Part shown: piece after piece, positions 11,626 through 17,352 of the stretch
How positions within the stretch are numbered: the stretch's first letter is position 1
Layout of the letters: the number at the start of each line of letters is the position of its first letter
DNA from: a virus
DNA length: 46,859 bases
IMG/VR virus record: IMGVR_UViG_3300035670_000363
Coordinates: 1-46,859 of that record
Direction: 5' to 3' (one strand)
Position numbers and translations under genes: made by a program
The notes under the pieces: generated by a model
The model's database searches: none
What the model was told of the DNA's origin: nothing
The model's input: only the letters and a program-made list of their open reading frames with translations

Positions 11626-12087
11626 ATGACAATGGCACGCAAACACCAAAGCGTCTTGACGCAACGGCAGGAAATCTATTCGGAGGCTAGGCTTGATGGG
11701 GAATCCAAAGAGTCTGCACGAGCTAAAGCCGGTTACAAACCTTCGGATAACAAAACCGAAGCTCGTGATGTGAAGGAATACATCGCGGATCGGCAAGGCC
11801 AGTTGATTGAGATGTCGCAAATCAAGCGTCTGGATGTCCTGAACATGCTTAAGGAAGCCTACGACATGGCTAAGACGATGGCTGAACCATCGACGATGGT
11901 GTCTTCAGCCAAGGAGATTGGAAAGATGCTCGGTTTCTACGAGCCTGAGACCATCAAGGTGGAACTCAGCCACGCACAGGCCAGTATCCAAAGGCGTCTA
12001 ACGATCATGACGGACGAACAGTTACTCGCTCTGGCTGAAGGAAAAGGTCATCTGATCGAAGGGGAGAGCCACCGTGTCGACCACTGA
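11626..12087 (+). CDS. terS: Terminase small subunit
   Basis: A 153-residue protein, the DNA-recognition subunit of the packaging motor by position and form. The N-terminal part (TQRQEIYSEARLDGESKESARAKAGY) reads like the helix-turn-helix of small terminases (A-x-x-x-A-G-Y). A helical oligomerisation region follows and the C-terminal tail probably contacts the large subunit. It overlaps terL by 14 nt. A second ATG two codons in has better spacing from a weak GGA and may be the real start. It is the first gene of the plus-strand late region, behind the inverted repeat at 11589. Confidence 0.8.
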   Translation: MTMARKHQSVLTQRQEIYSEARLDGESKESARAKAGYKPSDNKTEARDVKEYIADRQGQLIEMSQIKRLDVLNMLKEAYDMAKTMAEPSTMVSSAKEIGKMLGFYEPETIKVELSHAQASIQRRLTIMTDEQLLALAEGKGHLIEGESHRVDH

Positions 12088-14719
12088 GTTCGTAAAGTGC
12101 AATGTCTGTGACGTAGAACGCGAGGCGAACACGCTGGATCAGCTAGGTCGATGCCCGTTTTGCGTTGACGAGGAAATCCCGACTGAAACCGTCAAGAAAT
12201 CGGCAAAAAGACGCACCGTAAAGGCTGTCAAAGCTGTACAGAATCCTGAGCCGGAACCTTCGCCGTCAGAATCTGTACAGATCACTCCAACGGTCATCCC
12301 TTACGAACCCCCTGTCTACACCCCCGCATCGTCACCTGAGCAGGAACTGGCGCTACGGGTGCTGTGTCGTCGCCGCCTCCTGCCCTTCATACAGCGTTTC
12401 AGACCGAAATACCTCCCCGGTTGGGTGCATGAGGACATCTGTCGGCGTCTGGAACGCTTCAAGGCGGCTGTAGAGCGCGGGGAAAGCCCTCGGATGCTCC
12501 TGATGTGTCCTCCACGGATGGGAAAGTCGGAAATCGGGTCACGGCACTTCGCTCCGTGGGTCTTGGGTGACCATCCTGACTGGGAAATCATCGCCGCAAG
12601 CCACACTTCCAGCCTAACCCTGTCCTTCAGCCGCTACGTGCGCGATCTGATGCGTGATCCGGCCTACCATGTGGTGTTTCCAGAGGCTCGTTTAGACCCT
12701 TCCAGCCAGTCCATCGAGAACTGGAACACGACCAAGGGTGGTGGCTACCTCGCGGCGGGTGTCGGAACCGGTATTACGGGTCGCGGGGCGCACATTCTGC
12801 TGCTGGACGACCTTGTGAAGGACATTGAGGCGGCAGACTCAGCCACGATCAAGGACAACACATGGGAATGGTACGGTTCAACCGCCTACACCCGTCTTGC
12901 TCCCGGTGGTGGTGTGCTGGGAATCATGTGTATGACTGGCGACACCCCTGTTCTGATGGCTGATGGTACCAACCGTAGGCTTGACACTCTCGCACCATCT
13001 GACTCAATCGCAACGTATGCGAAAGGTCGCTTGATAGCCACAACCGTTGCGGCTGTAAAGAAAAGTGGTCGGGATTCAGTCTTCAAAATGACGATGAAAT
13101 CTGGTAGAGTCGTCAGAGCGAATCAGAGACACCCGTTTCTGACTGTCTCACCGGATGGAGAACTCTCATGGAAGCGCTTGCGACAGTTGAGTACAGCGAC
13201 AAGAATCGTAACCGTAAAGGGCAATGGGGGAAGTGGCGGGGAGTTACGTGTTCGGCAGAAGGGTGTGAAAAGCCGGCTAAATGTCGAGGACTTTGCGACA
13301 GCCACTACGGGCGGGAAAGATGGAAGTCCGGTCATCGGGCAAAAAGCGATCTGGACGCTCAACGTAGACGAAACGCAAGACTCAAGCATCGCTACGGGAT
13401 CACGTCAGACGATTACGACGCTATGTACGAAGCTCAAAAAGGGTGTTGTGCAATTTGCGGAAAACATGCGGAAGCGGGTAACTCACCTGCTCACTGGAAA
13501 AACAAACTCGCAGTTGACCATTGCCACGACACTGGAAAAGTCAGAGGGTTACTTTGCAACGACTGCAATGCTGGAATTGGACACCTTGCCACTGAGTCAG
13601 TGGCACTTGCCGCCGCAAAATATCTCAGACTTCACGTTGGACGAAATCGTAAGCATCGAACCTGACGGGGAAGAAGACGTTTTTGATGTTCAGGTGGATC
13701 ACACTGAGAATTTCATAGCGAACGGGTTGGTAAGTCACAATACGTGGTGGTCGGAAGATGACTGGGCGGGGCGCATCCAGAGCGTCATGGAGTCCGGTGA
13801 GGGTGATGTCTTCGAGGTGGTGCGGTATCCGGCAATTAACGAGGATGGTGACGAATACATCCTGCTCAAGGAACCGAACCAGCCCATCGTTCAAATCCTC
13901 CCCGGTGACACTCCACCCCCCAGTGATGAGGCGAGACTCACACGACCGCACAACACGGCGGTGCATCCCGCACGCTACGACACGGAAGCAATGCTCCGTA
14001 TCAAGCGGAATCTGATCGCAACCGGTCAGAAGCGTGTATGGCAGTCACTCTACCAGCAGAACCCCATACCGGACGACGGTTTGTTCTTCACGAAGGAAAT
14101 GTTCCGGCACTACGCCACACCTCCGCACCCGACGCAGGTGAAGTATTACCAAGCGTGGGACTTTGCAATCTCCGAAGGAAAAGAATCGGACTTCACGGTG
14201 GGCGTGTGCATCGCCCACGATGCGAAGGACAACATCTACGTCTTGGATGTGCGCCGGTTCCGCTCTGATGATTCGATCATGATCGTCGACACGATCCTTG
14301 ACTACTACGTCGAGTACAACGCGCTGCCAGTCCTCGGTGTTGAAGATGGTCAGATATGGAAGGCGATGCAAGCATTCTTCGAACGCCGCTGTGCAGAGCG
14401 CCGGATTTATCCATCCTTCGAGATTCTGAAGCCTCTGACGGACAAGATGGTTCGTGCAGCACCCTTGCGCGGTCGGATGCAGATGAAGAAGGTCTGGTTC
14501 GACCCGAAAGCACCTTGGTACACCGCTCTCTACAACGAGCTTACCCGTTTCCCTGCCGGTAAGAACGATGACCAAGTGGACGCACTCTCTTGGGCTATCA
14601 GACTGTCTCTGATGTACGAGAAGCCGAAGGAACCAGACCGGACTCCGAAGTTCAAGAGTTGGAAAGACAAACTCCCCGGACTGTCACAGTCTGGATCACT
14701 TTCTCACATGGCGGCTTAG
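12074..14719 (+). CDS. terL: Terminase large subunit precursor with intein
   Basis: An 881-residue precursor; removing residues 286-556 leaves a 610-residue packaging ATPase/nuclease. It starts at GTG with GGGGAG upstream. An N-terminal CNVC...CPFC zinc ribbon (about residues 9-34) is unusual for terminases. The ATPase has Walker A CPPRMGKS (145-152) and Walker B ILLLDD (241-246). The coupling motif is reconstituted as IM-TWWSEDDWAGR after splicing. The nuclease has AWDFAISEGKESDFTVG (Asp 696), a VEDG acidic motif and DDQVDALSW (Asp 836), the three RNase H-like acidic positions. It moves phage DNA into the procapsid through the portal and cuts it. Without splicing the ATPase would be interrupted, so activity should depend on intein excision. 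Confidence 0.93.
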   Translation: MSTTEFVKCNVCDVEREANTLDQLGRCPFCVDEEIPTETVKKSAKRRTVKAVKAVQNPEPEPSPSESVQITPTVIPYEPPVYTPASSPEQELALRVLCRRRLLPFIQRFRPKYLPGWVHEDICRRLERFKAAVERGESPRMLLMCPPRMGKSEIGSRHFAPWVLGDHPDWEIIAASHTSSLTLSFSRYVRDLMRDPAYHVVFPEARLDPSSQSIENWNTTKGGGYLAAGVGTGITGRGAHILLLDDLVKDIEAADSATIKDNTWEWYGSTAYTRLAPGGGVLGIMCMTGDTPVLMADGTNRRLDTLAPSDSIATYAKGRLIATTVAAVKKSGRDSVFKMTMKSGRVVRANQRHPFLTVSPDGELSWKRLRQLSTATRIVTVKGNGGSGGELRVRQKGVKSRLNVEDFATATTGGKDGSPVIGQKAIWTLNVDETQDSSIATGSRQTITTLCTKLKKGVVQFAENMRKRVTHLLTGKTNSQLTIATTLEKSEGYFATTAMLELDTLPLSQWHLPPQNISDFTLDEIVSIEPDGEEDVFDVQVDHTENFIANGLVSHNTWWSEDDWAGRIQSVMESGEGDVFEVVRYPAINEDGDEYILLKEPNQPIVQILPGDTPPPSDEARLTRPHNTAVHPARYDTEAMLRIKRNLIATGQKRVWQSLYQQNPIPDDGLFFTKEMFRHYATPPHPTQVKYYQAWDFAISEGKESDFTVGVCIAHDAKDNIYVLDVRRFRSDDSIMIVDTILDYYVEYNALPVLGVEDGQIWKAMQAFFERRCAERRIYPSFEILKPLTDKMVRAAPLRGRMQMKKVWFDPKAPWYTALYNELTRFPAGKNDDQVDALSWAIRLSLMYEKPKEPDRTPKFKSWKDKLPGLSQSGSLSHMAA
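13157..13160 (+). promoter_or_regulatory. Internal ribosome-binding site for nested HNH gene
   Basis: GGAG lies 7 nt before the ATG at 13168, inside the intein coding sequence. It is well placed for independent translation of the out-of-frame endonuclease from terL mRNA. Confidence 0.65.
13168..13665 (+). CDS. Endonuclease VII-like HNH homing endonuclease nested in the intein
   Basis: A complete 165-residue gene lying wholly inside the intein but read in the frame one nucleotide upstream of the terL frame. An N-terminal zinc-binding segment (CSAEGCEKPAKCRGLCDSHY) is followed by a His-Me endonuclease core of the recombination endonuclease VII type. The core has GCCAICG, then VDHCHDTGKVRGLLCNDCN and AGIGHL, with the catalytic DH and four zinc cysteines intact. 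The segment YGITSDDYDAMYEAQKGCC is typical of this family. It has its own GGAG site. It probably cuts intein-free terL to promote homing. The preserved motifs show selection on this frame, while the terL frame is kept open across the same DNA. Confidence 0.9.
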   Translation: MEALATVEYSDKNRNRKGQWGKWRGVTCSAEGCEKPAKCRGLCDSHYGRERWKSGHRAKSDLDAQRRRNARLKHRYGITSDDYDAMYEAQKGCCAICGKHAEAGNSPAHWKNKLAVDHCHDTGKVRGLLCNDCNAGIGHLATESVALAAAKYLRLHVGRNRKHRT

Positions 14720-14721
14720 AA

Positions 14722-17352
14722 ATGATCGTACAGATAATTGCGACGACAAAGAAATATATTAAGGTCGCTGAGAAGGTGAACTCACTGACGAAGACGATGC
14801 CTGTAGGTAACAAGGTATACATCGTCGACGGTGAGGTGGTGATAGTCAAGGTTTACGGGAAATTCGATAAACCTACGGATAAGGAGCAGACCCCTTATCT
14901 CAAGCGCATCATCGTCGTCCCGTTTCCTGAAGCGTGGTGCGTACCTTGCTCACTGCCCAGAACGCAAGTGGCGTTCGTGCCGGACTATCGTTATGACAGT
15001 GTTTCTCGTGAGGGGAACTTCATCACCACAGACTTGCCTGTCCCATATGGTCTTTATCCGGCAGACAAGAGGAACTTCCAGAACGGCTATACACGGGAAG
15101 GGATTTCGGAAGAAAGTGGGGCTTACGTCGGGTATCCGGTTTACGATCCGAAGATTCTGGAAGAGAAAGGTAAGGAGTCTTACAAGTTTTGGGCTGGACT
15201 CCACGAGGGTCTTTTGACGACACTCTATCACTCGCTTTTTCCATTCACAGATTACGAAAAAGGGTTCTACTCGCAGTACATAAAAGGAATGCGAGCCGGT
15301 TGGTGGGGACCTGACGGAACACCTGTGGCGTGGAATTCCCAAACGGTATTTGCGAAATATCCACAAAAGGTCGACGGGGTGGATCGCGCCCTCACCGACC
15401 CGTTCCCGGCACGACATCGCAGGCATCAGTATTTCATGAACCGTGATGACCACAAGCACACGATGTGTGTCATGGTCGGAGGTAAGATTCATCAGGTGCC
15501 GGGGCTTGAAGGGACGGATGCGTTCATACAGGCGGCGTGTTACTACGACTATGAAGCAATGGTGAATGGGGAACCGAAAACGATCAGAGTGCTTCGCACA
15601 CTGATCGCATACGGCACAGAGATTCCCATGACTGGTTACATCGTGTGGCAGTATTTCATCCAAGACCAGTCCATCACACCGGAGTACCCCGTTGGGAGCG
15701 GCTACATGCTCTCAACTCCCCAGTTGTTCAACATGCACGTGTCTTGGTCTGGGTTTGACCGTACGGGAAGCGTCCTCTACCGTGCGAAGTATGGTGACAC
15801 CTACATTTACAACGGTATCCCGACGAAGATTCAGGATAACGAGAAGCTCGTCAGGGTTCAGATAAACAAGGTGACAACCCCTTATCCACAGTTGTCCCTA
15901 TCAGTTGTTGAGTCGGAGGTGACCCCTCCGTGGATGGCGACGACATCGGAGTCGAACCCTGAGTGGGAAAGGTTCCGCGAGGTTGAAGACACCGTGGAAC
16001 AGGTGGATTCAGAACCATCGTTCAGTTACCAGACATTCACGATCACCCACAAGTATTACTTGGCAACGATTGTCGATGGTCAGACCGTATTGGACGAGAT
16101 CGAGAACAGAACTTCGTCATCTGAGGTGACACACCTCACCCAGACAGACACCTCTTACACGCTAGGTGGTCACATCTTGGAACGCCTGACAGTGGTGTCA
16201 GGTAAGGTGATATCCATGTGGTTCGACAAGACAAATACTCTACAGGCGGCTTGGGAGAAGCGCACTGAGGCTATCGAGAAATACACCACTGTCACGGGTA
16301 GTGGGAACGCGCAGGTAAAACATGAGTACGATGTGTCGAATTACGGTCGGGATGTGGAGGGGTGGATTTTCGGCTACGACAAGGAGGACTTGCTCGGTGT
16401 CCCCTACGTTGCACGATCCTATACGAACAGTTACTCGACCCGCAGTGACTCGCAGACAACGACACGGGACTTCAAGATCGAGTTTGAAACGTCCACAGGT
16501 AAGAAGTGGACGGTGTTTGAGGACGATGTGCAATGGACATCTCTCACCATAAACGACACCCAGCAAACTGTGGACAACCACATTACGCGGGATTATGTCC
16601 AGACAACCTACGACAAGAAGTTCGAAGTGGTTGCGAGATACGACTACGACCACAACGAAGAATTCTTGGCGTGGGATGTGAGCAGTTTCACCCGCTCACT
16701 GGAGAAAGTGGGAATCAGGGATTTGGATCAGACCGTCACTACATACCGGGCATACCCGACACACGGTGAGTTGGGTCGTCCACCTGCATATGCGTGGTAT
16801 ACACTCGCTGTAGGGAACTTTAACCCTGAAGTGATTGCGGAAACGGTGTCGAACCTGACAGAGTTGGACGTTCGCAAGGCTGGGTTTGGTGACAACGGGA
16901 CTCTTTTTATCGACTATGAGCACACAGCCGGTGATACTGCGGATACCCAACAAGAACGTCAGGTTCATATGGACATGATGGATGCAATGGGTGTCACCCC
17001 ATCGGTTACACCCCCTCTTTCACCTTACGAGGTGTTTCCGAACCCATTGCCTATCCGTGGACCGGCATTCGTCCCGATCCATCTGGAGCAGCACATTTTT
17101 GCATTGGGGCGGGATTACATCTACTTCTTCACAGGGGATGTGTTGAAGTTGCCAAGTGTTCCACCCCTAAGACCTGCTGATGGGGGGAATCCTCGCAAGG
17201 GTTATTACAAAACCGACGCTCTTGGTGGGACTCTTCAGCCAGAATTGGACATATCGATGGGTCAGGCGGCTTTCACCGGTGACACCTATGAGATGAGTTA
17301 TCTGGTTTCAAGACATGAACTTACGATGAAATACCCCATGAACGGGTATTAA
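14722..17352 (+). CDS. Large unknown protein between terminase and portal
   Basis: An 876-residue protein starting MIVQIIATTKKYIKVAE, 2 nt after the terL stop. The frame is open 44 codons further upstream, but that would overlap terL. It is rich in Tyr, Thr and Asp, with many alternating beta-like stretches and few hydrophobic helices, suggesting a beta-structured or repetitive virion protein. I see no catalytic or membrane motif and do not recognise a family. Its position in the packaging/head block and its size suggest a structural or head-associated role. It has no obvious Shine-Dalgarno sequence, so it is probably translated by coupling with terL. Confidence 0.7.
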   Translation: MIVQIIATTKKYIKVAEKVNSLTKTMPVGNKVYIVDGEVVIVKVYGKFDKPTDKEQTPYLKRIIVVPFPEAWCVPCSLPRTQVAFVPDYRYDSVSREGNFITTDLPVPYGLYPADKRNFQNGYTREGISEESGAYVGYPVYDPKILEEKGKESYKFWAGLHEGLLTTLYHSLFPFTDYEKGFYSQYIKGMRAGWWGPDGTPVAWNSQTVFAKYPQKVDGVDRALTDPFPARHRRHQYFMNRDDHKHTMCVMVGGKIHQVPGLEGTDAFIQAACYYDYEAMVNGEPKTIRVLRTLIAYGTEIPMTGYIVWQYFIQDQSITPEYPVGSGYMLSTPQLFNMHVSWSGFDRTGSVLYRAKYGDTYIYNGIPTKIQDNEKLVRVQINKVTTPYPQLSLSVVESEVTPPWMATTSESNPEWERFREVEDTVEQVDSEPSFSYQTFTITHKYYLATIVDGQTVLDEIENRTSSSEVTHLTQTDTSYTLGGHILERLTVVSGKVISMWFDKTNTLQAAWEKRTEAIEKYTTVTGSGNAQVKHEYDVSNYGRDVEGWIFGYDKEDLLGVPYVARSYTNSYSTRSDSQTTTRDFKIEFETSTGKKWTVFEDDVQWTSLTINDTQQTVDNHITRDYVQTTYDKKFEVVARYDYDHNEEFLAWDVSSFTRSLEKVGIRDLDQTVTTYRAYPTHGELGRPPAYAWYTLAVGNFNPEVIAETVSNLTELDVRKAGFGDNGTLFIDYEHTAGDTADTQQERQVHMDMMDAMGVTPSVTPPLSPYEVFPNPLPIRGPAFVPIHLEQHIFALGRDYIYFFTGDVLKLPSVPPLRPADGGNPRKGYYKTDALGGTLQPELDISMGQAAFTGDTYEMSYLVSRHELTMKYPMNGY

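Follow-up and report, generated by a model that had tools for sequence, protein, structure and literature searches.

An endonuclease VII-type HNH gene nested out of frame within a splicing-competent-looking intein of a phage terminase large subunit

Inteins that carry an endonuclease are textbook two-domain fusion proteins. Fractured genes, in which a free-standing nuclease gene accompanies split inteins, were reportedly described by Dassa and colleagues in 2009. An HNH encoded out of frame within a phage gene is known from the ShiLan domain, or 'hidden HNH', of phage DNA methylases, an insertion expressly distinguished from inteins (Arsenault, Gosselin, Gogarten 2025, PMC11855218). For terminase inteins, the accessible text of Kelley et al. 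2016 (PMC5050341) describes splicing of the TerL6-f intein of phage Chandler in an MBP-intein-GFP reporter. In that text, endonuclease activity and HEN domains are reported only for TerL1-b and TerL1-c (LAGLIDADG), and an out-of-frame HNH in TerL6-f is unmentioned.

The locus described here lies in a 46.9-kb phage record of IMG/VR (IMGVR_UViG_3300035670_000363), which was analysed over its whole length of 46,859 nt (the window) and carries terS-like, terL, portal and major head genes consecutively. terL, the intein and the nested HNH, with their parts, are on the + strand. The terL (terminase large subunit) ORF (12074..14719; 881 aa; phrog_38, 1.3e-96) begins with a GTG that overlaps the end of the putative terS. 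It is interrupted by an intein, its frame is open across the insert, and its Pfam domains are Terminase_6N, Intein_splicing (6.9e-16) and Terminase_6C. Two calls near the end of the gene concern other elements. ARAGORN placed a tRNA-Arg within the terL coding sequence (14186-14278); it is probably a false positive, and Rfam gave no match there at the gathering score. Directly after terL and ahead of portal lies an ORF of ~900 aa (14590-17352), for which PHROG gave no match; its listed start, a TTG, falls within terL, and the true start is probably near the terL end.

The intein (12929..13741; 271 aa, 813 nt) sits in the C-motif (coupling motif) of TerL, between the ATPase and nuclease domains, with the junctions GVLGIM/CMTGDT...SHN/TWWSEDDW. 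Its N-terminal HINT half (12929..13219; pLDDT about 83-97) holds block A with C1 and block B with N65-x-x-H68. The C-terminal half (13625..13741), assigned from the splicing blocks and the model, holds block F (VFDVQV..TENFIANG) and block G (SHN) and is followed by a +1 Thr. C1, N65-x-x-H68 and H270-N271 are invariant among the 44 members of the family, the +1 Thr is present at the loci shown, and the Pfam Intein_splicing domain was found in 44/44 members. With blocks A, B, F and G, Cys1, the block B His, a C-terminal His-Asn, the +1 Thr, a precise in-frame insertion in a conserved motif and existing empty homologues, the element is class 1-like. The initial annotation, which described an open intein with intact splicing blocks, agrees with the Pfam match (6.9e-16) and with the presence of all four blocks. 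In AlphaFold2, the HINT halves were mostly modelled at pLDDT >90. The linker between them (residues about 100-216; 13226..13576), which is encoded by the HNH overlap, is predicted to be disordered: nearly all of it scored <50, with no secondary structure. Pfam detected no HEN domain in the intein frame between the HINT halves, which sets the element apart from inteins with an in-frame HEN. One group of alleles, that of the Gordonia phage Fosterous terL (L104), ends in ...THNFIANGLEVSN/T, without the penultimate His usual in other alleles; the nested HNH was still found there by tblastn. An RNA (group I) intron was rejected as the identity of the insert, as there was no Rfam match in the window and the host frame is open through the insert.

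Between the splicing blocks, in a frame other than that of terL and the intein, lies a complete gene of 165 aa for an endonuclease VII-type HNH protein (13168..13665; Pfam Endonuclease_7, 1.1e-21), as the initial annotation had proposed. The protein has an N-terminal zinc finger, recognised by conservation (C28, C33, C43, H46; 13249..13305), and an Endonuclease_7 (beta-beta-alpha-metal) catalytic domain (13375..13629) with D117-H118, N134 and the zinc ligands C94/C97/C130/C133. The intactness of the zinc cysteines and the catalytic DH, also read from this one sequence beforehand, extends to the homologues: D117-H118, N134 and the zinc ligands C28, C33, C43, C94, C97, C130 and C133 are invariant among them. 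Four zinc Cys together with a catalytic Asp-His and an Asn characterise Endonuclease VII / HNH (PF02945), and all are present. A T4 endonuclease VII profile matched the protein at 1.2e-8, AlphaFold2 modelled it at pLDDT 85, and Foldseek gave modest matches of the model to T4 endonuclease VII and Hpy99I (E about 0.004-0.01).

The nested protein varies in size. In one group of loci (L026-L034, L044-L080), inteins of about 300 aa contain a nested HNH of about 190-198 aa (one of 236 aa); compared with the 150-165 aa version, the consensus of this group has extra N-terminal Cys, which suggests an additional zinc finger. About 1,690 other records of the public phage collection hold HNH matches of the endonuclease VII type that are more distant. 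The ones listed carry the annotation of free-standing endonuclease VII genes, in Mycobacterium and Rhodococcus phages, and such genes are a possible source of the nested gene.

The arrangement is not confined to this record. Viral contigs were searched with the HNH protein, and among the best 80 of 268 relatives (window-homologue identity 46-81%), the intein frame was open across the HNH in 80/80, with 2-25 stops in the third frame. A second search used the intein as query (best 80 of 519 relatives). Among further distinct inteins found with either query, bacterial-genome loci included, the HNH was in the same frame in 63/63. Both splicing blocks and the out-of-frame HNH are kept in about 99 distinct inteins of phages and prophages. 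Nine full-length homologues were found in bacterial genomes (Bradyrhizobium, Nonomuraea, Mycolicibacterium and several metagenome-assembled genomes), all within an open frame that starts with CMTGDT or CMVGDT. Records matching the N-terminal half of the intein number 36 in the public phage collection, as many as have a terminase-embedded HNH match (36). No HNH-less allele of the intein was seen among these 36 records or the 63 further distinct inteins, although sets of the best 80 may under-sample degenerate or HNH-less alleles. Sequenced, cultured Mycobacterium and Gordonia phages have the design with the HNH unannotated; in Phlyer, the annotation covers the intein but omits the HNH.

These counts bear on several expectations of the initial annotation. 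A search for other inteins with an out-of-frame HNH had been proposed, and it returned ~99 distinct ones. A sequencing frameshift that had moved an in-frame HNH out of register fails as an explanation, since the same arrangement occurs in ~99 distinct loci. Homologues in which the intein is kept and the HNH frame is broken by stops would also have spoken against the nested gene; only one locus fits this description. The idea of an undescribed or rarely described design stands in part. A literature search found no paper on a hidden HNH inside a splicing intein, the ShiLan papers being the sole precedent; a 2025 preprint of the same group (10.1101/2025.01.02.630785), on actinobacteriophage inteins with 'non-canonical architecture', may overlap. 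The arrangement itself, however, is not rare.

GC-rich DNA commonly has long antisense or alternative-frame ORFs, and on this ground the HNH frame might simply result by chance from a conserved intein linker. The content of the two frames points the other way: a Pfam domain was found in the HNH frame of 44/44 members (best 1.6e-22), with structural and profile relatives, while the linker frame has no Pfam domain and is predicted to be disordered. Stop codons were counted in the intein frame over 63 distinct HNH genes. None was observed, against ~242 expected when the genes were recoded with host-gene codon usage and ~99 when their own codons were shuffled. The strength of this deficit comes from the homologues, because for the window HNH alone the effect is mild (2.8 stops expected, 3% of recodings open). 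As a control, the +1 frame of distant free-standing endonuclease VII genes was examined; it had stops in 14/15 scored, and the exception (L122, with no +1-frame stops) is without intein motifs. With the stop deficit over 63 genes and the Pfam domain in all 44 members, the chance-ORF reading was excluded, and its probability is negligible.

For selection on the two frames, close relatives were compared in 14 non-overlapping pairs, and dN/dS was computed with changes kept nonsynonymous in the other frame. It was 0.16 (0.13-0.19) for the HNH frame and 0.60 (0.51-0.72) for the intein-frame linker, and all-pairs bins agreed with these values. In 14/14 pairs, substitutions concentrated at HNH codon position 3, which is intein-frame position 2. 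Purifying selection acts strongly on the HNH frame; the linker is weakly constrained and mostly need only stay open. Taken together, dN/dS and the AlphaFold2 models indicate that the overlapping stretch specifies a genuine nuclease in one frame, and that its other frame yields a disordered linker that is tolerated. The frame-specific comparison suggested by the initial annotation (HNH about 0.16, linker about 0.6) thereby qualifies its view that one stretch must serve two proteins. Both frames are indeed open in the homologues, but the constraint is lopsided, with the HNH selected and the linker loose.

The same values bear on whether the HNH frame is a relic, once an in-frame HEN, displaced by an old indel and now decaying. 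One locus looks like this: in L116 (2700-3300, a bacterial bin), a single stop breaks the nested HNH frame and the intein is intact, with its frame open. L116 is likely a decaying allele, as decay in the homing cycle predicts. As an account of the family, a relic is highly improbable: purifying selection on the HNH frame is strong (dN/dS about 0.16 among close pairs without overlap), catalytic and zinc residues are invariant, start and Shine-Dalgarno site are conserved, and the HNH is intact in 98/99 distinct loci.

The start of the nested gene is built from intein codons. The coordinates 13168-13665, the ATG and a GGAG 7 nt upstream, as first annotated, are correct as read from the sequence. 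The Shine-Dalgarno-like GGAG (13157..13160) comes from the codons of intein Gly77-Glu78, and the nested ATG (13168..13170) overlaps the TGG of the invariant Trp81 (13169-13171). The same construction holds across the family: the nested RTG combines the last base of the preceding codon with the TGG of the conserved HINT Trp, the start is ATG in 80 and GTG in 19 of the 99/99 distinct inteins, and a Shine-Dalgarno-like site is usually found 7 nt upstream. Where the codon before the Trp belongs to a codon family with C- or T-ending members, it ended in C or T in 0/25 cases (nominal P 1.7e-10). The Gly codon of the Shine-Dalgarno site was GGA or GGG in 86/94 homologues vs 34% elsewhere in the same ORFs (nominal p 1e-31). 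Both nominal values overstate the evidence, because the homologues share ancestry and are not phylogenetically independent. No match to a sigma-70 promoter of its own was found near 13168, so expression of the HNH from the terL message is assumed.

These data also speak to the possibility that the HNH is not independently initiated and is instead fused to the N-terminal half of the intein by -1 ribosomal frameshifting. In favour of this, the HNH lies in the -1 frame with respect to terL, and at a minority of loci its ORF continues open far ahead of the start. Yet an HNH-frame stop lies <=12 nt before the start in 43/99 distinct loci and <=30 nt before it in 59/99, two loci (L013 and L014) have no open HNH-frame codon ahead of the start at all, and start codon and Shine-Dalgarno site are conserved beyond the needs of intein coding. 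We consider frameshifting very unlikely and independent initiation the better account of the nested gene.

Comparison of terL loci with and without the intein, which the initial annotation had recommended, found intein-free relatives lacking exactly the intein plus HNH. A close intein-free relative (L088) has the uninterrupted motif GVLGIM/TWWSEDDW and no HNH. The flanks of Mycobacterium phages Akoma and Nozo are ~99.8% identical, and Akoma is without exactly the 762-bp intein; between Gordonia phages McKinley and Affeca, McKinley is without 795 bp. Among intein-bearing phages, AlanGrant and phi1_186018 have exteins 94/85% identical and an HNH of 47% identity, and Affeca and Angelicage share ~97% of extein DNA and 90% of intein DNA. 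Intein alleles therefore move or diverge independently of their hosts. Distances of the HNH and of the splicing domain were correlated (r 0.72; partial r 0.56 given the extein), as expected if both travel together. The sporadic presence and the host-independent alleles, that is, the distribution, point to a homing-endonuclease role of the HNH.

A different role, in DNA packaging together with the terminase and comparable to that of HNH proteins whose genes lie next to terminase genes, could be proposed from the position of the nested HNH inside terL and from HNH proteins that aid terminases in some phages (mentioned in PMC11855218). Akoma and McKinley, whose terL flanks are ~97-99.8% identical to those of their intein-bearing relatives, and L088 are without HNH and intein, which makes the HNH dispensable. 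Its distribution follows the intein, and the HNH itself varies independently of the surrounding TerL. We regard a packaging role as unlikely.

We read the 813-nt element as a mobile intein with its homing endonuclease encoded by an overlapping gene that is initiated independently, and not by an in-frame domain, with a probability of roughly 0.86. Ribosomes translating terL would read the HNH region in the intein frame, as a long disordered linker between the HINT halves, and the intein would then splice out to leave active TerL; for the window allele this follows by analogy with the splicing reported for the homologous Chandler TerL6-f. Other ribosomes may initiate inside the terL message, at the ATG or GTG of the Trp codon behind the Gly-codon Shine-Dalgarno, which would yield a free EndoVII-type HNH nuclease of 150-200 aa. 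Judging from the distribution, the nuclease would cleave terL copies that lack the intein, at the C-motif, and intein and nuclease would be inserted together when the break is repaired from an intein-bearing copy. As to its origin, a mini-intein probably acquired an endonuclease VII-like gene, out of frame, at the position of its linker, and intein-frame stops were purged. With some reservation, we favour the broader view of a widespread and hitherto undescribed intein class in which splicing and homing occupy two overlapping frames, the start and ribosome-binding site of the HNH come from intein Gly and Trp codons, and homing is set by internal initiation, uncoupled from splicing.

The nested arrangement looks like a stable but overlooked way to build a mobile intein. 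The terL inteins of this type would be a whole splicing family that carries the nuclease in an overlapping gene. It escaped notice because annotation does not look beyond a single frame, in phages whose sequences have been available for years and even in one whose intein was assayed for splicing. Other inteins classed as HEN-less may hide nucleases. The locus is also a natural case of strong gene entanglement, in which about 500 nt encode two proteins under unequal selection, and it raises the question of how internal initiation apportions output to spliced TerL and to free nuclease. With 36 sequenced phage records and near-identical empty alleles, it offers a control-rich homing system for Mycobacterium smegmatis.

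Among known systems, the TerL6-f inteins of cluster B3/B4 mycobacteriophages occupy the same insertion site, the TerL C-motif, as the window intein, and Chandler gp6 carries the same nested HNH architecture. Classical inteins with an in-frame HEN (LAGLIDADG or HNH) likewise have the HEN coding sequence between blocks B and F and sit in a conserved ATPase motif, but in the terL intein the HEN is a separate overlapping gene and not a fused domain. In group I introns that contain free-standing HNH ORFs (I-HmuI, I-PfoP3I), too, an HNH homing gene with its own start lies inside a splicing element; in the terL intein, by contrast, splicing would be at the protein level and the same nucleotides would be translated twice. 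As in fractured genes, the HEN gene is separate and lies between two intein halves, whereas here intein and terL form one continuous ORF. The ShiLan domain shares an out-of-frame HNH in a phage gene, an open host frame and a disjunct distribution that suggests homing. Unlike the terL insert, it has no domains for splicing and presumably remains in the methylase; no ribosome-binding site is detectable for its HNH, and the insertion is almost entirely HNH. The terL HNH is flanked by both HINT halves of a complete intein and preceded by a Shine-Dalgarno-like site of its own, and splicing can restore the host protein; with its splicing domains, the terL insert is not a non-splicing insertion of the ShiLan type.
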